Below are positions 38,576-53,501 of a stretch of DNA of 64,000 bases, in pieces. Origin of the DNA: Bacillota bacterium (lineage in GTDB: Bacteria > Bacillota > Limnochordia > DTU080); the NCBI GenBank assembly GCA_012840225.1, contig DULU01000085.1:1-64000 (forward strand). Direction: 5' to 3'. The position numbers and the translations under genes are program-made. Below the pieces are notes generated by a model. That model was not told the origin of the DNA. It saw nothing but the letters and a program-made list of their open reading frames with translations, and made no database searches. Within the stretch, counting starts at the first letter, position 1. Each line of letters opens with the position of its first letter.

Positions 38576-38595
38576 TTTTTTTGGGAGGAATATTA

Positions 38596-41145
38596 TTGAA
38601 CAAAAGCGCAAGCCAAACAGCCGAAAAATATGCCGTCCTCGAAGGCATACATGAGCTGGTCTTCCTGGACCGTTATGCTTTGAAAGATCAGGAGAAGCGC
38701 CTGGCTCCAGGCGATGTCGTAGTTGTGCTGGTGAAAGACGATCCCCGCTTCCCGCAAAAGGAAGTGGGCACGGTGAAGGAAGTGAAAGGCGACACCGTCC
38801 AGGTGATCCTGAAATCCACCGGCGAGGTCTTCACCCAAAACCTGAAAAACATCGACAAGCCGCTGGAGACCACTCCCGCCGCCATGTGGGAGCGCATGGC
38901 CAAGGCGGCGGTGGTCAACGAAAAGCCTGAGAAGCAGGCGGAGCTCGTCAAGGAGTTTCGCTGGCTATTAGGGGACTTCCGCTTCAGTCCGGGCGGCCGC
39001 ATCAATGCCATGCTGGGGAGCGGTCAGAACCTGACCTGCTATAACTGCTATGTACTGCCCCTGCGGGCCAATGCCGAGGGCATCGGCATCGATTCCCGGC
39101 AAGCTATAGTGGACACTCTGGGCAACATGGTGGAAATCATGTCCCGCGGCGGCGGGGTAGGCATCAACCTGTCGCCTCTGCGGCCCCGCCTGGCCTATGT
39201 CAGCGGGGTCAACGGCCGCAGCTCGGGCTCGGTGAGCTGGGGCGGCCTCTTCAGCTTCGCCACCGGCCTGGTGGAGCAGGGCGGTTCCCGGCGCGGGGCC
39301 CTGATGCTCATTCTGGAAGACTGGCACCCGGATCTGCCGGAATTCATCAAAGCCAAGCGTGACATGCAGGCCATCAACAATGCCAATATCTCCGTGGCCA
39401 TCAGCCATGCCTTCATGAAGGCGGTGGAAGAGGACGGCGACTGGCAGCTCGTCTTTCCCGACACCACCGATCCCGACTATGACAAGCTCTGGGACGGGAA
39501 GATCACCCGCTGGCGGGATGAGCTGAAGAAACCGGTGGTGGTGCATGCCACCTATAAAGCCAGGGAGATCTGGCACACCATTATGGAATCGGCCTGGCTG
39601 AGCGCCGAACCGGGCATCGTCTTCCTGGAACGGATGAACGAATACTCCAACAGCTGGTATTTTGAAGACCTGATCGGCACCAACCCCTGCGGCGAACAAC
39701 CCCTGCCCGCCTGGGGAGTGTGCAATCTCGGCCACATCAATTTGAGCCGCTTTGCCAAGGGTCCCATCGGACAGGCCGAGGTGGACTGGGAGGCTTTGCG
39801 GCGCGCCGTGCACCTGGGGGTGCGCTTTCTGGACAACATCATCGACATCACCCCCTATTTCTTCGCCGAAAATGAAAGAGTGCAGAAAAATGAACGGCGC
39901 ATCGGCATGGGTACGATGGGGCTCGGTGAACTGCTGATCCGGGTGGGCATCCGCTACGGCTCCCCCGAAAGTCTGGCATTTATAGATAATTTATATAACT
40001 TCATCGCCACCGAATCATACCTGGCCAGCGCCGCCCTGGCGGCAGAGAAAGGAAGCTTCCCGGCCTTCGACCGGGATAAATACCTGCAGGGCAAATTTGT
40101 GGCCGGTCTTCCCGAAAAGGTGCATGAGGCCATCCGCCGCCAGGGTATGCGCAATGTGTGCGTGCTGACCCAGGCTCCCACCGGCTCCACCGGAACCATG
40201 ATCGGCACCAGCACCGGGATCGAGCCTTATTATTCGTGGACCTATTTCCGCAAAGGGCGCCTGGGGGTGCGGGAGGTGGAAGAGCGCATCGTCCAGGAAT
40301 GGTTTGCCGAAAATCCCGATGTGGAGCGCCAGCTGCGCAACCTGCCCGCCTTCTTCGTCACCGCCATGGATCTCTCTCCCCGGGAGCATATTCAGGTGCA
40401 GGCGACCATACAGCGCTGGACCGACTCGTCGATCTCCAAGACCGCCAACACCCCGAACCACTATACCGTGGAGCAGACGCGCGAACTTTATGAATTCGCT
40501 TATAAGAGCGGCTGCAAAGGGGTGACCATCTACAGGGACGGCTCACGGGATCAACAGGTGTTGACCAAAAAAGACGAGGAGAAGAAGGTGGAAGCCGTGT
40601 CCGCTATTCAAGAAGAACTGAAACCTGACAAGAAAACCAAGGTGGAACAGGAAAGCCTCCTGCACTGGCCCGGCCGGCCGCAAAAGTTGACCGGTGCCAC
40701 CTATGAGTGGCCGACGCCGCTGGGGAAAGCTTTCATCACCGTGAATGAATATAACGATGAGCCTATCGAGGTTTTCGTCAACATCGGCAAAGCCGGAAGC
40801 GACATCGCGGCTATGTCCGAGGCTTTGGGCCGCCTCACCACCATGTTTTTAAAGCATGCCGGTCTGAAGACGTGCGAGGAAAAGGTGGCCATGCTCATCA
40901 GGCACCTGTCGGATATCGGCGGCTCCACCTCGGTGGGCTTTGGCGCCAACCGCATCGCTTCCGTGCCCGATGCCATCGCCAAAACCCTGAAGCATCATAT
41001 GGAAGAGAAAGCCGGCCAAAACGGCAAGGACGTGACGTTTAAATCCGGCGGCGGGCTGGACTTGTGCCCCACTTGCGGGCAGGCGGCCCTCGCCAGGGAA
41101 GAAGGCTGTTTTGTGTGCAAAGCCTGCGGCTACAGCAAATGCTAA
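38596..41145 (+). CDS. nrdJ: Adenosylcobalamin-dependent (class II) ribonucleotide reductase
   Basis: NLTCYNCYVLP…EPGIVFLERMNEYSN…NPCGEQPLPAWGVCNLGHINL…TQAPTGSTGTMIGTSTGIEPYYSW; C-terminal zinc ribbon; TTG start after GGGAGG. Confidence 0.93.
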   Translation: MNKSASQTAEKYAVLEGIHELVFLDRYALKDQEKRLAPGDVVVVLVKDDPRFPQKEVGTVKEVKGDTVQVILKSTGEVFTQNLKNIDKPLETTPAAMWERMAKAAVVNEKPEKQAELVKEFRWLLGDFRFSPGGRINAMLGSGQNLTCYNCYVLPLRANAEGIGIDSRQAIVDTLGNMVEIMSRGGGVGINLSPLRPRLAYVSGVNGRSSGSVSWGGLFSFATGLVEQGGSRRGALMLILEDWHPDLPEFIKAKRDMQAINNANISVAISHAFMKAVEEDGDWQLVFPDTTDPDYDKLWDGKITRWRDELKKPVVVHATYKAREIWHTIMESAWLSAEPGIVFLERMNEYSNSWYFEDLIGTNPCGEQPLPAWGVCNLGHINLSRFAKGPIGQAEVDWEALRRAVHLGVRFLDNIIDITPYFFAENERVQKNERRIGMGTMGLGELLIRVGIRYGSPESLAFIDNLYNFIATESYLASAALAAEKGSFPAFDRDKYLQGKFVAGLPEKVHEAIRRQGMRNVCVLTQAPTGSTGTMIGTSTGIEPYYSWTYFRKGRLGVREVEERIVQEWFAENPDVERQLRNLPAFFVTAMDLSPREHIQVQATIQRWTDSSISKTANTPNHYTVEQTRELYEFAYKSGCKGVTIYRDGSRDQQVLTKKDEEKKVEAVSAIQEELKPDKKTKVEQESLLHWPGRPQKLTGATYEWPTPLGKAFITVNEYNDEPIEVFVNIGKAGSDIAAMSEALGRLTTMFLKHAGLKTCEEKVAMLIRHLSDIGGSTSVGFGANRIASVPDAIAKTLKHHMEEKAGQNGKDVTFKSGGGLDLCPTCGQAALAREEGCFVCKACGYSKC

Positions 41146-43139: not shown

Positions 43140-44348
43140 TTACGGGATGGGAGTAAACATCAATCCGGGCCGGATGGCATGCACCTCCACCTCGTATTCC
43201 ACTTTGAGCTTTTTGAAGATCTCCGGCCAGTCATTTTCCAGCTCGGCCCAGACTTTTGGGAACTTGCGGTAGAAAGCGAAGCCGAAGCCGAAAATGTCCG
43301 TACCGAGTTCCTGGGCCCGCTCTACCGCCAGCACCAGGTCTTCCTTGATAGCCTCCGCCACCCTCTCCCGCATGGAAGTGGTCACATCCGGATCGGTAAG
43401 CAGGACGGGCACCTGCTCCATACTGCGGCCGACGATATCATGAATAGCCGCCCTGGCTTTGACGCTGATCCTGATCTGGAGTTCCCCGTCCTTTATCTCG
43501 GGTTTAAAGGAGCCGGCCATCTGCCTGATCTCCACGGTGAAGAAGTCTTCGGTGCCGGGCACGATCAGATTCTTGAAATAGACCCGCAGGTCGCCTTGGA
43601 TCAAGTGGTAGCCGGCCGCTTCCCGCGGGCTCAGCCAGCCCATCAGCTTGGTGCCGAGAAAAGCCCCGCCGCCGTTCAACATGGCGGTCGGCTGCAGCTG
43701 TGAAGCTTCCCCGCCGCCGTCTCCTTTGGCCCCGGACAACACCGTCACGCGGGTGATGGTCATCTCATGACCCGGCCGGGGCAATTTTACAAACTCGTCC
43801 AGTATCGGTCCGGCAAACAAGGCACCGCTGACATCCGCCCCCAGGTTCAGCAAGCGGTTGAGGCCCATAGCCGGCGAGCTCTCCATAGGTGTGGTGGAGG
43901 TGAGCAGGGTTTTGATATCCCCTTCCACAATCACCGAATTGATGCTTAAACGGATCTCCGGCTCTCTTTTCAGCAAATCGATGACCGGCGCCAATCCTTC
44001 CCGGGCCAGCCGGGTGGAAAAAAGGATCAGGCGCACATGGGCGAGGGAGATGTTGCGCGGTATGAAGAGAGCGGCATTGGTGATGGCCAGCATGGGAGTT
44101 TGGCCGACCGAGGTGATGGTGACGGTCGGCGGCTGATTTTCGGTGCTCCCGCCGGTCTCCGCCCCGCCGCCGGTGGCAGGGGAAACGGGATTGGGAAACA
44201 AGAGGTGCACGATATATTGTCCGTCGTCATCGATGTCGAAGCCGAGGGCAATGGCATGCACGATCTCCCCCGGCTCCCGGTAATCCCAGCAGCCGGTGTT
44301 TATCAGCATCAAGAGAGCCAGAATAACCGCAAAAGCAAAGCGCCGCAA
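43140..44348 (-). CDS. gerAC: Ger(x)C family spore germination lipoprotein
   Basis: ILALLMLINTGCWDYREPGEI lipobox and Ger(x)C fold. Confidence 0.9.
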   Translation of the reverse strand: MRRFAFAVILALLMLINTGCWDYREPGEIVHAIALGFDIDDDGQYIVHLLFPNPVSPATGGGAETGGSTENQPPTVTITSVGQTPMLAITNAALFIPRNISLAHVRLILFSTRLAREGLAPVIDLLKREPEIRLSINSVIVEGDIKTLLTSTTPMESSPAMGLNRLLNLGADVSGALFAGPILDEFVKLPRPGHEMTITRVTVLSGAKGDGGGEASQLQPTAMLNGGGAFLGTKLMGWLSPREAAGYHLIQGDLRVYFKNLIVPGTEDFFTVEIRQMAGSFKPEIKDGELQIRISVKARAAIHDIVGRSMEQVPVLLTDPDVTTSMRERVAEAIKEDLVLAVERAQELGTDIFGFGFAFYRKFPKVWAELENDWPEIFKKLKVEYEVEVHAIRPGLMFTPIP

Positions 44349-45479
44349 TCAGCTCCGCTCCTTTCCCTTTTTTGCCGGCACGGCAGGCAGAGTGCCTGTG
44401 AAGTACCTGACCAGGTATACCAGCCACAAGAGCAGGAAAGGCAGGTATAGAAAGGTGGTAACGTAAGGTAACAGGACATGCGGCTGAAAAAGGCGCAGCA
44501 CATCGAAGATGTCGTCATAGGAACTCACGGCCACAATCACCCAGATGACCGCCATCGGCCCAATCAGCGGCCGGTTGTCCCGCAGACCCATCAATTGGGA
44601 AAGCCCTATCGAGCCGCAGTAAAGATATACAGCCACATCGATAAAGAGGCCGAAGCCCCAGGCCAGCACGCTCAAGACGTCGAAGCGCTCGAAAAACTGT
44701 GTGGGCGACACCGTCTTGAGCATGGTGAAGAAGGGATAGCGCAGATATTTCCCATGCTGCGGGCCGAACACCCCAGGCACCAAAACGGCGGCCATGGTCA
44801 GGATGATGCCCGCCGCCAGCATAGCCTGCATGCCTACGGTCACGCCTTTTTCCGGTTTGTTCAGGGCAGGGATGAGCATGGTCAACGCGATCACATGGGC
44901 AGCAAAACCGATTGGTGAAGCAGTGCTGGAGAGGACCGGCCCCCAGCCTTGGGCCAGCACCGGCTGCAGGTTCTGAATATCAAAGCCGGTTAGCGAGACA
45001 CCCAGCGACAACAAAACAAACAGCAGAAACCAGGGGAACAAAGCATCAGCCGCCCGTCCGATGGTTTCAATACCCATATATACCGCCAAGGCGGAAAGGA
45101 CCACCATGACGGTGATGATAAAGGTGAAGGAGGTCTCCCGCAGGAACTGCCCGCCGATCAGATCGGCATATATGCGGGTGTCCGTAGCGGCAATATGCAA
45201 AAAAACCCACAGAAAACTGAAGGAGAAGAAAGCACCGGCATATTTGCCCAACAAGAGCGAGCTGTACTCAATCACCGTCAGGCCGGGGAACTTCAGGGAG
45301 AGTCCACCGATGTAGGCCGCAATGGCAACCATGCCAAAGGTAGACATGATGGCGGCTATCCAGGCATTTTGATCGGCATTCCCGGTGGTGAACACCGGCA
45401 GCGTGGAGAGGATGATGGTGCTCTGAATCATAAACAAGATGAAAAGCAGTTGGCGGTTACTGATTTTCTCCACTTTCAT
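44349..45479 (-). CDS. gerAB: GerAB-type spore germination permease
   Basis: KISNRQLLFILFMIQSTIILSTLP…NADQNAWIAAIMSTFGMVAIAAYIGGLSLKFPG. Confidence 0.92.
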   Translation of the reverse strand: MKVEKISNRQLLFILFMIQSTIILSTLPVFTTGNADQNAWIAAIMSTFGMVAIAAYIGGLSLKFPGLTVIEYSSLLLGKYAGAFFSFSFLWVFLHIAATDTRIYADLIGGQFLRETSFTFIITVMVVLSALAVYMGIETIGRAADALFPWFLLFVLLSLGVSLTGFDIQNLQPVLAQGWGPVLSSTASPIGFAAHVIALTMLIPALNKPEKGVTVGMQAMLAAGIILTMAAVLVPGVFGPQHGKYLRYPFFTMLKTVSPTQFFERFDVLSVLAWGFGLFIDVAVYLYCGSIGLSQLMGLRDNRPLIGPMAVIWVIVAVSSYDDIFDVLRLFQPHVLLPYVTTFLYLPFLLLWLVYLVRYFTGTLPAVPAKKGKERS

Positions 45480-47283
45480 GCGGCTTTCGTCCTCCTTTCC
45501 GTTTTGGCGGTGCGCCCGCTCCTTCCGTTTTTACCGACTTCTTTTTTAAATCCCACTTTTGCTCCTTGGCTTCTTTATCCAGCACCTGGCGCGGCTGTCT
45601 ACCAGGAGGAGTGCGCTCAGGCTCCCGGCTGCCCTCCAGCTTAGGCCGGGTAGTCATGGCCCAGACCGGGGCTTTGAACAAGGTGTCCTTCATGTCGCTC
45701 ACGATCAGGGGACCCAGTGGGGCAAAATAGGGGTAGCCGAAGGAGCGGTAGCTGCACAACAGGATCAGGAGGGAGAGAATGCCGAACTGAATGCCGAACA
45801 AACCGAAAATGGAACCCAATAGGATAAAAAAGAAGCGATAGAGCCTGGCGCCGATGCCGAAAGAAAAGGTGGGCACGGTAAAGGAAGAGATGGCGGTGAG
45901 AGCGACGATGATCACCACCGCCGGCGAGACCAGCCCGGCACGGATGGCCGCTTCTCCCAACACCAGGGCGCCGACAATGCTGATGGCCGGACCGATGGCT
46001 CTGGGCAGACGCACCCCGGCCTCCCGCAGGAGTTCGAAGACCATCTCCATCATCAACACTTCAAACCATACCGGGAAGGGCACGCTCTCCCGGTTGGCGA
46101 TGATGCGCACCAAGAGCTCGGCGGGCATCAACTCGTCGTGGAAAGTCAGGATAGCCACATAGACACCGGGTAGCAAGATCGACAGCAAGAAAGCGCCGGC
46201 CCGGAGCCATCTGAAGAAGATGCCTATCGGTACCTTCTCGTAATAATCATCAGGAGCCTGAAACAGCATGGGCAATGTGATGGGCAGGATCAAAGCAAAG
46301 GGCGTGTTGTCGGTCAGGATGGCCACCCGGCCCTCAAGCAAGGAGGAGGCTACCCGGTCCACCCGCTCGGTCCTGATCACCAAAGGTAAAATGGAATAGG
46401 CCTGGTCCTGGATCAGGTCCTCGATGTAGCCGCTCTCCAGGACGGCATCCACTTCGATGCGGTGTACCCTCTGGCGCACCTCCGCCAGCAACTCCTCATG
46501 GGCCAGCCCTTTAATATAAACAATGGCTACATCGGTGCGGCTCAGGTGACCGAGAGTCACTTTTTCCACCCAGAGGTTGGGCGTCTTGATCCGCTTGCGC
46601 AGCAAGGCGATATTGGTGGAAAGACTCTCTATAAAGCCCTCCCGGGGCCCGCGGATTAGGGTCTCCCCCTCCGGCTCCTTGAGGGAGCGAACGGGCACAT
46701 TTTCGGTGTTACAGATCAGAGCTTTGTCTACCCCGTCGAAAAGTACCGCCGAGTTGCCGTGCGCCAGGGCATTCCAGATGTCGATTGAGGTTTGTACTTC
46801 TTTTACTTCCGATGAAGTGAGCAGCCGGGTGCGAAACTGCTCGTAAAGGGCGGCGGCTCCCTTCTCCGGGATTGGCGCTTCCAGCATACCCCAACCCAGC
46901 ATGTGCTTGATATTCTCCACCAGCTGCTGGTCGGATAGGGCGCTGATGCGACAGAGCGCCACCGGCACCTCGCTCCGTCCCGCCTTCAGCTCGGTGATCA
47001 CCACATCCGGGGAAGGGCCGGCCATCAGCTTCAGCACTTCGAGGTCGTCTTTCAGCTTTCCGGTCAGTTTGAGCTGCCGCTCAATATTTTCCCGCTCGCT
47101 GATGTCCAGTTCGTCGTCCAGGAGAACCTCCGGGTCGGGAGATTTGGGCGGGTCGGGAGATTTGGGAGCTTTTTTCTTTTTAAAGAGTTGGGTCAGGCGG
47201 CGCCAAAAAGGCATAGAGCGACTACAGCTCCTCCGGCTCCAGTAAAGATAGATCGCTGAGGCCGGACCTGATCGGCCCGGCAT
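45457..47283 (-). CDS. gerAA: GerAA-type spore germination protein
   Basis: DVVITELKAGRSEVPVALCRI…LIRGPREGFIESLSTNIALLRKRIKTPNL…EVLMMEMVFELLREAGVRLPRAIGPAISIVGALVLGEAA. Confidence 0.95.
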   Translation of the reverse strand: MPGRSGPASAIYLYWSRRSCSRSMPFWRRLTQLFKKKKAPKSPDPPKSPDPEVLLDDELDISERENIERQLKLTGKLKDDLEVLKLMAGPSPDVVITELKAGRSEVPVALCRISALSDQQLVENIKHMLGWGMLEAPIPEKGAAALYEQFRTRLLTSSEVKEVQTSIDIWNALAHGNSAVLFDGVDKALICNTENVPVRSLKEPEGETLIRGPREGFIESLSTNIALLRKRIKTPNLWVEKVTLGHLSRTDVAIVYIKGLAHEELLAEVRQRVHRIEVDAVLESGYIEDLIQDQAYSILPLVIRTERVDRVASSLLEGRVAILTDNTPFALILPITLPMLFQAPDDYYEKVPIGIFFRWLRAGAFLLSILLPGVYVAILTFHDELMPAELLVRIIANRESVPFPVWFEVLMMEMVFELLREAGVRLPRAIGPAISIVGALVLGEAAIRAGLVSPAVVIIVALTAISSFTVPTFSFGIGARLYRFFFILLGSIFGLFGIQFGILSLLILLCSYRSFGYPYFAPLGPLIVSDMKDTLFKAPVWAMTTRPKLEGSREPERTPPGRQPRQVLDKEAKEQKWDLKKKSVKTEGAGAPPKRKGGRKPHESGENQ

Positions 47284-47339: not shown

Positions 47340-49205
47340 TCAGCTGCCGCCGGACAATGTGGCTTCCGGCTGCCGGCGGAAGAGAATAGGCAGGCCGCCT
47401 TGGCGAGCGACACTATGGCGCCGCTGCTGCCACCGGGCTAAACAGTAGATGGCGGCAAAGAGGAGGCTCTCCATGGCCAAAACGGCGACGGCACCGATCC
47501 CGGCGGTGACCACCATATATAGCAGAGCACCGCGCCAGAGGATGGCCGCAGTCAAAGCCCTATGCCGGTATCGGCGCAGGCGGCGGTTGATGGCCACCAG
47601 CTGCGGGATATCCGCCACCTCTCCGAGCGGCATGAGCAGGCAGCTTTGCACCATCGCCTCTTCAGAAAGAGCTTCAGGACCGATGGCGATGCCTGCATCT
47701 GCCGCCAACAGCAGGTCGGAGGCGTCGGCCGCCCGGCCCACGACAGCGATTTTCACCTTAGGTTTGAGCATGGAGCGGATGGTGGCGAGCTCCTGACCGG
47801 CAATCAGCTCCACTTCCAAGCCGTTTTGCGGGTGGATCAGCGTGCGATGGCTCTCGCCGCTTTCTGTGCCGCGGCTCGTTACATCAAACAGGCGGATGCC
47901 TGCTCCGGAAAGGAAGCCGCCTTCCTGCTCCCAGCCCTTCAGCTCGATATAAGTGACTCCCAGCACGCCCAGGACGTATTGGGCGGCCGCCACATAGACG
48001 GGTTCGCCGCCCCAGTCCAGGATCCACTCCGTCAAGGGTTGGGCTGGAGAGAGGTCAAGACCCAGGCTTTCCATGAAGGCGGCGTTGCCCACATAGCACA
48101 GATGATCGTCAACTTGGGCCTGGACGCCCAGACCCGGTATTTCCAGGCCGTCTGTCGCCTTGACCTTATGCTTGACCCGCCTTACCCTGGAAGCCGCTTT
48201 GATCACCGCCTCAGCCAGCCAGTGATCGCTGCCGGCCGCCTTCTCCACCGCTCCGGCCAAGACCAGCAATTCCCTGGATGAACAGGCTTTGGGTTGTACG
48301 GGGAGCGCTTCCACCACCCGGCCGATCTTTTTTACCATCTGCCGGCCGTTCACCAGGACATAAGCTTTCATATGGGCACTTTTTTCCACGGTTTTTATAT
48401 CGGCAGCGAGCCAACCCCGGCTGAGGCAGATGCCGGCCAAAGCTAATCTGAAAGCTGTTACGGAGAAAGGCAGCGCGCCCGGAAGACCGGCAGCCACCAA
48501 GGCGAGGGAAAGCTCAAGAGCGGCGGCGCTGCTGGTACCGAGGGAAAGCGGCTGCCAGAGAGCGACGATGATCGCCGCCGCGGCGCAGAGGACGGCCGGG
48601 AGGTAGGTAAGAAGGGAAAGCCGATGGGAATACCCGGTGGCCGAGTTCAAAAGAAGGTGGCCCAAGTCGGCACCGGCAGTCATGTTGGCGCCGGCAGTCA
48701 TGTTGGCGCCCGCCGTCTCATGCTCCCCCGCCTCGCCTGTCTCCTTTGCCTCGCCTGTCTCCCCTGTCTCGCTTGGCTCCCCCGCCTTGCCCGTCAAGGG
48801 GACGGCGGCAGCTTGTACGGCAGTCATTTGTAGACAGGCACCGGCGCTCCAGAGGAGCAGTAGGAGAATCGTGTCGACCGGCCGGCGCAGGATAGTACTG
48901 CCGGCAGCGAGGAGCAGGCAGGCTACGGCCCCCACCCCCAGGGGATTCTCCCCCCACTTTAAAGAAAGGAGGGCCGGAATCCAGAGCACCAGGGCCAAAG
49001 CGGGAATGAGCAGCAGTTCGGGCGGGAAACCGTTCCTGAGAAGGCTGCCGGCGAAAGAGATACCGCGGCTCGATAACCAGTGGTATAGCAAAAGAATGAA
49101 TGCCGCTGTCGGCACGGAGAGGACTGCCGCCCGCTTAGCCCGGGGAGTCATGGCCATATATTGCGACAACACGTCCCCACTCCTCTCCATACTCCAACTC
49201 TCCAC
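47340..49205 (-). CDS. P-type (P1B-like) ATPase homolog lacking catalytic motifs (predicted pseudoenzyme)
   Basis: N-domain-like SSRELLVLAGAVEKAAGSDHWLAEAVIKAA…LEIPGLGVQAQV…CYVGNAAFM; P-domain-like KVKIAVVGRAADASDLLLAADAGIAIG; no DKTGT, no TGES, no CPx. Confidence 0.75.
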   Translation of the reverse strand: MESWSMERSGDVLSQYMAMTPRAKRAAVLSVPTAAFILLLYHWLSSRGISFAGSLLRNGFPPELLLIPALALVLWIPALLSLKWGENPLGVGAVACLLLAAGSTILRRPVDTILLLLLWSAGACLQMTAVQAAAVPLTGKAGEPSETGETGEAKETGEAGEHETAGANMTAGANMTAGADLGHLLLNSATGYSHRLSLLTYLPAVLCAAAAIIVALWQPLSLGTSSAAALELSLALVAAGLPGALPFSVTAFRLALAGICLSRGWLAADIKTVEKSAHMKAYVLVNGRQMVKKIGRVVEALPVQPKACSSRELLVLAGAVEKAAGSDHWLAEAVIKAASRVRRVKHKVKATDGLEIPGLGVQAQVDDHLCYVGNAAFMESLGLDLSPAQPLTEWILDWGGEPVYVAAAQYVLGVLGVTYIELKGWEQEGGFLSGAGIRLFDVTSRGTESGESHRTLIHPQNGLEVELIAGQELATIRSMLKPKVKIAVVGRAADASDLLLAADAGIAIGPEALSEEAMVQSCLLMPLGEVADIPQLVAINRRLRRYRHRALTAAILWRGALLYMVVTAGIGAVAVLAMESLLFAAIYCLARWQQRRHSVARQGGLPILFRRQPEATLSGGS

Positions 49206-50877: not shown

Positions 50878-52518
50878 ATGAATCAGCAAACTGTGGCAGA
50901 TTTTCTGGTTATCGGCAGCGGCATCGCCGGGTTGTTCACGGCCATCAGAGCTGCCAAGCACGGACGGGTACTGCTGGCGACCAAAGGGGAGTTATTGGAG
51001 AGCAATACCTGGTACGCGCAGGGTGGGGTGGCTGCCGCCCTGGGGCGGGAAGACAGCCCCCAGGTGCACTTCGTCGATACCCTCCAGGCCGGGGCGGGAT
51101 TGTGCCTGACCGACGCCGTCCAGGTTTTGGTCAACGATGGTCCGCAGCGCATATTGGATCTGATTGAGCTGGGCGCCCGCTTCGATCGGGATCAGGAGGG
51201 GCGCCTCATTTTGGGTAAGGAAGCGGCGCACAGCCGCAATCGCATCGTGCACGCCAGGGGGGACGCCACCGGGGCGGAGATCGCCGAACTATTGGCCGGC
51301 CACGCGCAAAAAACCGCCGGCCTGACCATCAACACCAACTGGCTGGCCCTGGAACTCCTGATGCAGGACGCTCACTGCACCGGCGCCATGTTCCTGGATA
51401 GGCAGAGCGGGGCCGTGATAACTTGCCGGGCCAAAGCCACGGTGCTGGCCACAGGTGGTTGCGGACAGGTTTACCGTTTTACCACCAACCCCTCGGTGGC
51501 CACAGGCGACGGCTTTGCCATGGCCTACCGCGCCGGTGCCCGCCTGATGGATATGGAGTTTATCCAGTTCCATCCCACCGCCCTGGCCTTTGAGGAGAAT
51601 CCCATGCCTTTGGTTTCCGAAGCGGTGCGCGGCGAGGGAGCGATCTTAGTCACCGCCTCGGGACGCCGCTTCATGACGGACATCCATCCGTGGGCCGAGC
51701 TGGCACCGAGAAACGTGGTGGCCAGAGCCATCTTTGACGTGATGCAGGAGGAACGGGTCTATCTCGACGCCACCTCTTTGGGCGACAAATTCCCGCAGCG
51801 CTTCCCCACCATTTTCCGCTTGTGCATGGAGCGGGGCGTCGACCCGCGCCGGGACCTGATACCTGTGGCTCCCGCCGCCCACTTCATCATGGGCGGGGTG
51901 TGGGCCGATACGGAAGGACGCACCAGCATCCCCGGCCTTTATGCATGCGGGGAGGTGTCATGCACCGGTGTGCATGGGGCCAATCGCCTGGCCAGCAACT
52001 CTCTCCTGGAAGGTCTGGTCTTTGCCGAGCGGGTAGCGCAGGCCTTACCGCATACCCCGGAAGTCGGGGACAGAGCGACCACACCCCAAACACCAAATAC
52101 GCCCCAGGCCGGCGAGCGTCCGGAAACAGCGGCCGTCGCCCATCCGGCCGGTGTGGGTTATAGACTGCCGGCCAATGCCGAAGAAGAAGCCTGGTGCCGG
52201 GAGGCGGCGGCGGAAATCGGCGATATTATGTGGCAATATGCCGGCATAGTGCGCTCGGCGGCCGGTTTGGAGACGGCTTTGTCGAGGCTCGCAGCCCTGC
52301 GCCGGAAGGAGGCGGCGGGCTTCCTGCCGATATGCAACATGCTCGATACCGCCATGCTGATCGCCACCTCTGCCTATGAGCGGCAGGAGAGCCGGGGCGG
52401 GCACTATCGCCGCGATTTCCCCGAGGAAGCGGCGGAATGGGCCAACCGCCATGTGGTGGTCACCAGGGAAGGCTGCCAGGTGGTGCAAAACGGTGCCGTG
52501 CCGCATCGTCCCTGGTGA
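50878..52518 (+). CDS. nadB: L-aspartate oxidase
   Basis: DFLVIGSGIAGLFTAIRAAKHGRVLLATK…NTWYAQGGVAAAL…AAHFIMGGVWADTEGRTSIPGLYACGEVSCTGVHGANRLASNSLLEGLVF. Confidence 0.96.
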   Translation: MNQQTVADFLVIGSGIAGLFTAIRAAKHGRVLLATKGELLESNTWYAQGGVAAALGREDSPQVHFVDTLQAGAGLCLTDAVQVLVNDGPQRILDLIELGARFDRDQEGRLILGKEAAHSRNRIVHARGDATGAEIAELLAGHAQKTAGLTINTNWLALELLMQDAHCTGAMFLDRQSGAVITCRAKATVLATGGCGQVYRFTTNPSVATGDGFAMAYRAGARLMDMEFIQFHPTALAFEENPMPLVSEAVRGEGAILVTASGRRFMTDIHPWAELAPRNVVARAIFDVMQEERVYLDATSLGDKFPQRFPTIFRLCMERGVDPRRDLIPVAPAAHFIMGGVWADTEGRTSIPGLYACGEVSCTGVHGANRLASNSLLEGLVFAERVAQALPHTPEVGDRATTPQTPNTPQAGERPETAAVAHPAGVGYRLPANAEEEAWCREAAAEIGDIMWQYAGIVRSAAGLETALSRLAALRRKEAAGFLPICNMLDTAMLIATSAYERQESRGGHYRRDFPEEAAEWANRHVVVTREGCQVVQNGAVPHRPW

Positions 52519-52574: not shown

Positions 52575-53501
52575 GTGAATCCTATCTGGCTGGCTGATAT
52601 AGTCAAAAGGGCTCTGGACGAGGATATCGGCTACGGCGACATCACCACCGAGGCCATCGTCTCCCCCGGCACGCAGGCCAAAGCGGTGATCAAGGCCAAG
52701 GAAGACGGCCGTCTTGCCGGGCTTGAGGTAGCTGCCACCGTCTTCCGCCTTTTGGACGAGACCATCCGCTTCCAGCCGGAAACGGCCGACGGCCGGGATG
52801 TGGCCGCCGGTGAGGTGCTGGTCAACCTGACCGGTCCGGCGGCCCCTCTGCTCCTGGGAGAGAGAGTGGCCCTGAACTTCCTGCAGCGGTTGTCGGGCAT
52901 AGCCACCATGACGGCCAAAGCTGTAAAAGAGGCCGCTCCATATGGGGCACGCATCGTCGACACCCGCAAAACCACCCCCACCCTGCGGGCTCTGGAGAAA
53001 TATGCCGTGCGCATGGGCGGCGGCTACAATCACCGCTTCGGCCTGGACGACGCCGTGCTGATCAAGGAGAATCACATCGCCGTGGCCGGCGGTATAAAGG
53101 AAGCTGTAGCTTTGGTGCGCCGGCGGGTGGGTCACATGGTGAAAGTGGAGGTGGAAGTGGAACACCTCCACCAGATCGATGAAGCGTTGGAGGCTGGGGT
53201 GGACGCCATCCTCCTCGACAACATGGACCCGGAGACCATGAAGAAGGCCGTGCAGATGGTGCACTCCCGGTTTGGCCGGGAGGGAGCACCGGGAGCACCA
53301 GAAGCATCAGGAGCACCAGGAGCACCAGGAGCTGCGGTAGCGGCAGGAACGGGAGGCCGCCCCTTGCTCGAAGCTTCGGGAGACGTCAGCATAAGCACGG
53401 TGGCGGCCGTAGCCGCCACCGGGGTGGACATCATCTCTATGGGTAAGCTCACCAGGTCGGCGCCCTCGCTTGACCTGAGCATGAGGCTTTATATGCTCTG
53501 A
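52575..53501 (+). CDS. nadC: Nicotinate-nucleotide diphosphorylase (carboxylating)
   Basis: ALDEDIGYGDITTEAIV…LNFLQRLSGIATMTAKAV…VDTRKTTPTLRALEKYAVRMGGGYNHRFGLDDAVLIKENHI; GTG start. Confidence 0.96.
   Translation: MNPIWLADIVKRALDEDIGYGDITTEAIVSPGTQAKAVIKAKEDGRLAGLEVAATVFRLLDETIRFQPETADGRDVAAGEVLVNLTGPAAPLLLGERVALNFLQRLSGIATMTAKAVKEAAPYGARIVDTRKTTPTLRALEKYAVRMGGGYNHRFGLDDAVLIKENHIAVAGGIKEAVALVRRRVGHMVKVEVEVEHLHQIDEALEAGVDAILLDNMDPETMKKAVQMVHSRFGREGAPGAPEASGAPGAPGAAVAAGTGGRPLLEASGDVSISTVAAVAATGVDIISMGKLTRSAPSLDLSMRLYML

Follow-up and report, generated by a model that had tools for sequence, protein, structure and literature searches.

Pseudoenzymes are well known among kinases. For the P-type ATPases, no pseudoenzyme precedent was found in the open-access literature searched, an absence that is in itself no proof of novelty, and none shows up in the searched passages of a review from 2023 on the enigmas of P-type ATPases (PMC10654040). 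The protein reported here, encoded in a contig stretch of 64,000 nucleotides (referred to as the window), shares with pseudoenzymes such as the pseudokinases (PMC10211241, PMC12599244) a preserved fold, lost catalytic motifs and conservation within a lineage. The closest described enzymes are the P1B-2 ATPases (ZntA/CadA; NF008262, TIGR01525; pdb-code: 4umw), which the window protein and its five orthologues in the same bacterial order resemble in domain order, membrane layout and the fold of the nucleotide-binding (N) domain. They differ from these pumps in that DKTGT, TGD and GDGxND are present in none of the six, TGES is retained only in the orthologue of genome G003, the CPx metal site is altered in all six, the HMA metal-binding domain is detectable in two, and all scores fall below the curated family cut-off. 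The P1B-1 copper ATPases (CopA, ATP7B, HMA4) share the N-domain contact motifs (E, H, GxG and N), all of which occur in the window protein, but are set apart by the same catalytic losses; moreover, a canonical CopA-like pump (C42) is encoded separately in the window genome. That the protein is a pseudoenzyme derived from a pump and conserved throughout its order is well supported by the data described below.

The gene is an intact open reading frame at 47340..49205 on the minus strand, where all features of the protein given below are also located, and codes for 621 amino acids from a GTG start, with an ATG at codon 6 as a possible better start. The product matches the NCBIfam model for heavy-metal P-type ATPases, TIGR01525, with E=3.6e-13 and 49 bits, a score below the curated cut-off of 346 bits, and in a phmmer search the plant Cu-ATPase HMA4 with E=1.3e-7; a Pfam search of the protein returned no P-type ATPase match. 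The homology exceeds chance, and the protein is a genuine but degenerate P1B ATPase. It is single-copy in its genome, which also encodes three canonical P1B pumps, complete or nearly so, that score 483–651 bits against TIGR01525. According to hydropathy and a weak structure model, its membrane segments are compatible with the eight helices of P1B pumps, namely N-terminal helices at the MA, MB, M1 and M2 positions (residues 26–134; 48804..49130), M3–M4 (residues 195–262; 48420..48623) and the C-terminal M5–M6 (residues 545–592; 47430..47573). No HMA metal-binding domain was found ahead of the N-terminal helices. Sigma-70-like sites upstream of the gene are weak and uninformative, and PADLOC gave no defence-system match.

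Alignment with canonical pumps of the same class reveals how far the catalytic apparatus has been lost. The phosphorylation motif DKTGT is replaced by VNGRQ (48339..48353), which lacks the phosphorylatable Asp, TGD by TSR (47871..47879), and the GDGxND hinge by GRAADA (47721..47738), after which ADAGIAIG is retained. The intramembrane CPx metal site of M4 (CPCA) has become LPGA, within the stretch LPGALP (48468..48485), without the cysteines. No actuator domain is present, and alignment, model and repeat search place at its position a low-complexity linker (residues 135–178; 48672..48803) coded by a minisatellite of 18-bp tandem repeats (arrays at 48669–48710 and 48723–48795); the aligned ‘TGE’ is tandem repeat only and does not represent a TGE(S) loop. 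Because no phosphorylatable DKTGT, TGD or GDGxND is left, and the actuator domain and the CPx site have disappeared as well, the protein cannot, as judged from its sequence, pass through the phosphorylation cycle in the canonical way. The phosphorylation motif is not concealed by a frameshift, since DKTGT is absent in all six frames around the window locus, and a frameshift or sequencing error masking the motifs was rejected for the five orthologues too, none of which has DKTGT in any frame. The sequence-only reading of the window had placed the intact frame at exactly these coordinates and had described a catalytically dead P1B homolog with a replaced CPx site and an actuator apparently reduced to a repeat-rich linker, all of which was borne out. 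As a separate observation, the window genome carries a second in-frame minisatellite, a GAPGAP-type insert in nadC (53283–53332) which is absent from the nadC genes of G001 and G002.

The order was represented by its six available genomes, which belong to six genera and three families, the window's family contributing three. An order search combined with a comparison of nadB neighbourhoods detected one copy of the gene at one shared locus in every genome. There, it is divergent from an array composed of (an isocitrate/isopropylmalate-dehydrogenase-like gene) nadB–nadC, followed by an aminotransferase gene (dat), a rhomboid gene and sufB, and nrdJ lies on its other side wherever the contig or the retrieved stretch extends that far. 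The constant upstream neighbour nadB (50878..52518, plus strand) serves as a locus marker and is not part of the protein. Two of the orthologue contigs are public (LFTP01000116.1 of Clostridia bacterium DTU080, and DUQB01000028.1), and contig scans found only the same two relatives. The aligned DKTGT position reads differently in each of the six proteins (VNGRQ, VNVTS, AWDAT, DQSGA, EPGAV and SHS-L), and their TIGR01525 scores spread over 49, 110, 111, 312, 222 and 142 bits. Four of them have lost the CPx site and show no detectable HMA domain; G004 and G005 keep the PC of CPC and an HMA domain with CxxC, which in G004 stays below the Pfam cut-off. The best-preserved orthologue, that of G005, still has Asp at the site of phosphorylation (DQSGA) and matches the ZntA-type model NF008262 at 2.7e-93. 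This model is the best NCBIfam hit for both G005 and G004, and the canonical sequences nearest to these two in BLAST are ZntA/CadA-like pumps of other Bacillota with ca. 30% identity. The ancestor was probably of the ZntA/CadA-like P1B-2 type.

No homolog with DKTGT occupies the pseudo-pump locus in any of the six genomes, and recent decay was rejected as the loss of the motif is common to all of them. Outside the order, DKTGT is intact in the retrieved readable matches from the class and in the best 29 further matches of a 399-genome phylum sample. Spread by plasmids was likewise rejected; the matches listed comprised only ordinary heavy-metal ATPases, none of them covering more than 80% of the length. 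The dead-pump reading stands, neither a DKTGT-bearing homolog at the locus within the order nor a motif-restoring frameshift having come to light. In the phylogenetic tree a branch with supports of 93/94 has all six pseudo-pumps on the same side, and those of G001, G002, G004 and G005 stand alone on one side of another (96/91). Since the branches are long, this grouping calls for caution, and synteny is the stronger argument. The best explanation is an ancient pseudoenzyme which arose from a P1B-type heavy-metal pump, was inactivated by the time of the order's common ancestor and has been inherited vertically at one locus. Two outgroup genomes contain a canonical P1B pump tail to tail with nrdJ, G031 (L136 2011–4272, plus strand) and G043 (partial; L138 1–807, plus strand). 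The arrangement is the same as that of the pseudo-pump in G003 and G004 and may reflect coincidence or gene replacement. A canonical ancestor at the outgroup locus was rejected, as the DKTGT pump beside nrdJ in G031 falls into a different group of paralogues, which is not near the pseudo-pumps.

Third codon positions are saturated between the orthologues, and selection was therefore judged from codon positions 1 and 2, compared with partner sequences realigned after shuffling of their codons. Clear constraint was found for the pairs G001–G002 (p2 0.41 vs 0.52 in shuffles, sd 0.013) and G005–G004 (p2 0.38 vs 0.53, sd 0.022), and slight constraint for the pairs of the window gene within its family. 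In place of the dN/dS ratio named by the sequence-only reading, the codon positions thus indicate amino-acid constraint in the closest pairs, but between-family pairs showed no convincing constraint relative to the shuffles, so that for the order as a whole the claim is based on synteny, on the HMM scores and on the tree. Despite the saturated third positions, the frames are fully open over 621–795 amino acids in five of the six genomes. When 30% of the sites were redrawn in a simulation, an open frame survived in 0–1 of 400 cases per gene, and the mean number of stops was 6–14; open frames in five genomes are consequently not expected under drift. In the G002 orthologue (L032 8752–10908, minus strand), the two halves are separated by one in-frame TAG, for which an error of assembly, recent decay and readthrough are all conceivable. 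With an identity of 27–36% within the family, compared to 61–64% for nadB, the pseudo-pumps evolve much faster than their neighbours. The distribution of this divergence is uneven. Among the domains compared, the N domain ranks lowest in conservation in the working pumps from these genomes, and highest in within-family comparisons of the pseudo-pumps. Its identity amounts to 50% between G001 and G002 (44–48% in canonical pairs) and to 54% between G004 and G005 (50–70%), whereas the actuator, M3–M4 and M5–M6 of the same pairs reach 22–43% vs 52–92% in canonical pumps, i.e. about a third to a half. Between families, the N-domain identity drops to 24–30%.

In the window protein, the N domain (residues 293–420; 47946..48329) has retained its fold and is the most constrained part, as indicated by pLDDT, Foldseek and per-domain identity. 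The stretches SDHWLA, GLG and VGN are real N-domain motifs, and the nucleotide contacts of P1B pumps, E, H(P), GxG and N, are all present by motif as E321, H328 (HW instead of HP), G358xG360 and N374, with an E–H spacing two residues longer than in canonical pumps. An AlphaFold model built from a three-row alignment has an overall pLDDT of only 52.7, but the N domain is predicted confidently, values being mostly 75–90 over residues ca. 300–420 and 66–90 in most 10-residue blocks. The top Foldseek match of the model is 4umw, a P1B ATPase that transports zinc (E=2.3e-11); superposition of the N domain alone on that of HMA6 gives a TM of 0.83 and an rmsd of 2.6. For the N domain, noticed from the sequence as an N-domain-like stretch, the fold can be taken as firm, and for the remainder the claim stays suggestive, because the TM of the whole model is just 0.33. 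Two further elements of the domain are invariant throughout the window's family of three genomes, Cys308 of a PKACS motif at its start (48282..48284) and His368-x-Cys370 (48096..48104). Given 8–10 cysteines per protein, ca. 0.002 shared cysteines would be expected by chance, an estimate that ignores shared ancestry and hence demonstrates conservation, not function. The nucleotide-contact residues erode across the lineages: H328 is found in two of the three members of the window's family, and G004 and G005 have lost both H and N.

On the basis of these data, the protein is very probably a conserved pseudo-pump and not an ATP-driven transporter. We infer that it has been retained as an N-domain-centred scaffold or regulator, a mechanism which we advance tentatively as one possibility; the two propositions taken jointly, with the weight on the pseudo-pump part, appear fairly probable. 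Inactivated by the time of the order's ancestor, the pump has kept its layout as a membrane protein and the fold of its N domain, and in this scenario it would stay membrane-bound in a non-catalytic role, as scaffold or regulator, with the N domain as its working part. In the window's family, this domain combines pump-level conservation, part or all of the nucleotide contacts and the invariant C308 and H368-x-C370, and it may bind a partner (e.g. a canonical P1B pump of the same cell), nucleotide or metal. A more far-reaching proposal would be an undescribed class of P-type ATPase pseudoenzymes fixed across the order, in which a pump was turned into a membrane-anchored sensor or regulator, the constraint shifted to the N domain, away from the membrane and phosphorylation domains, and the invariant Cys/His-x-Cys set of one family may bind metal or form a redox switch; as a whole we regard it as unlikely. 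The order-wide syntenic case with its graded loss, G005 being nearest to a pump and the window protein lowest, offers a natural series for asking what use a pump has without pumping and whether N domains serve as independent sensing or docking modules.

The main rival is a slowly decaying relic, a pump that became inactive in the ancestor of the order and on which selection is by now weak and fading, any real function being absent. The fast divergence, the loss of the window actuator domain to a minisatellite, the in-frame TAG in G002 and the steady fall of the HMM score between lineages all fit such a course. Yet a relic would hardly have survived order-wide at a single locus, its frame still open in five of the six genomes, as neutral drift would have introduced several stops, and the amino-acid constraint in close pairs, the pump-level conservation of the N domain within families and the invariant cysteines in the window's family also argue against it, so that we consider slow decay somewhat improbable. 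A transporter still working by another mechanism, for instance by letting metal pass through the former pump helices passively or coupled to protons, could draw on the remaining membrane helices, on the CxxC-bearing HMA domain and the residual PC of the CPC motif in G004 and G005, and on the Asp of G005. It is nevertheless highly unlikely in view of the missing CPx site and the undetected HMA domain in four of the six proteins, and of the membrane segments being among the least conserved parts, which is the opposite of what a transporter needs.

A link to spore membranes or germination had been suggested by the sequence-only reading from the neighbouring genes. The pseudo-pump gene lies on the same strand and 56 bp upstream of a gerA-type operon (43140..47283, minus strand) consisting of GerA (45457–47283), a spore permease (44349–45479) and GerAC (43140–44348), and might accordingly encode a spore-membrane or germination protein acting with the adjacent GerA receptor. 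In the five other genomes, however, no gerA occurs within the compared stretches around the orthologue, although each has 2–4 gerA copies elsewhere. As all six genomes possess gerA and only the window genome has it beside the pseudo-pump, the adjacency is lineage-specific, and a function in germination is hardly to be expected. Of the earlier proposal to check whether the DKTGT loss is shared and syntenic with gerA, the shared, syntenic and old loss in all six genomes held, and the association with gerA did not extend beyond the window genome. Near the locus, the gene of the B12-dependent ribonucleotide reductase, nrdJ, was read in five genomes and in three of them contains an in-frame insert resembling an intein (1224–1254 vs 854–873 amino acids), the gene being located at 38581–41145 in the window and at L032 3020–6784, L074 2428–6147 and L075 858–4532.
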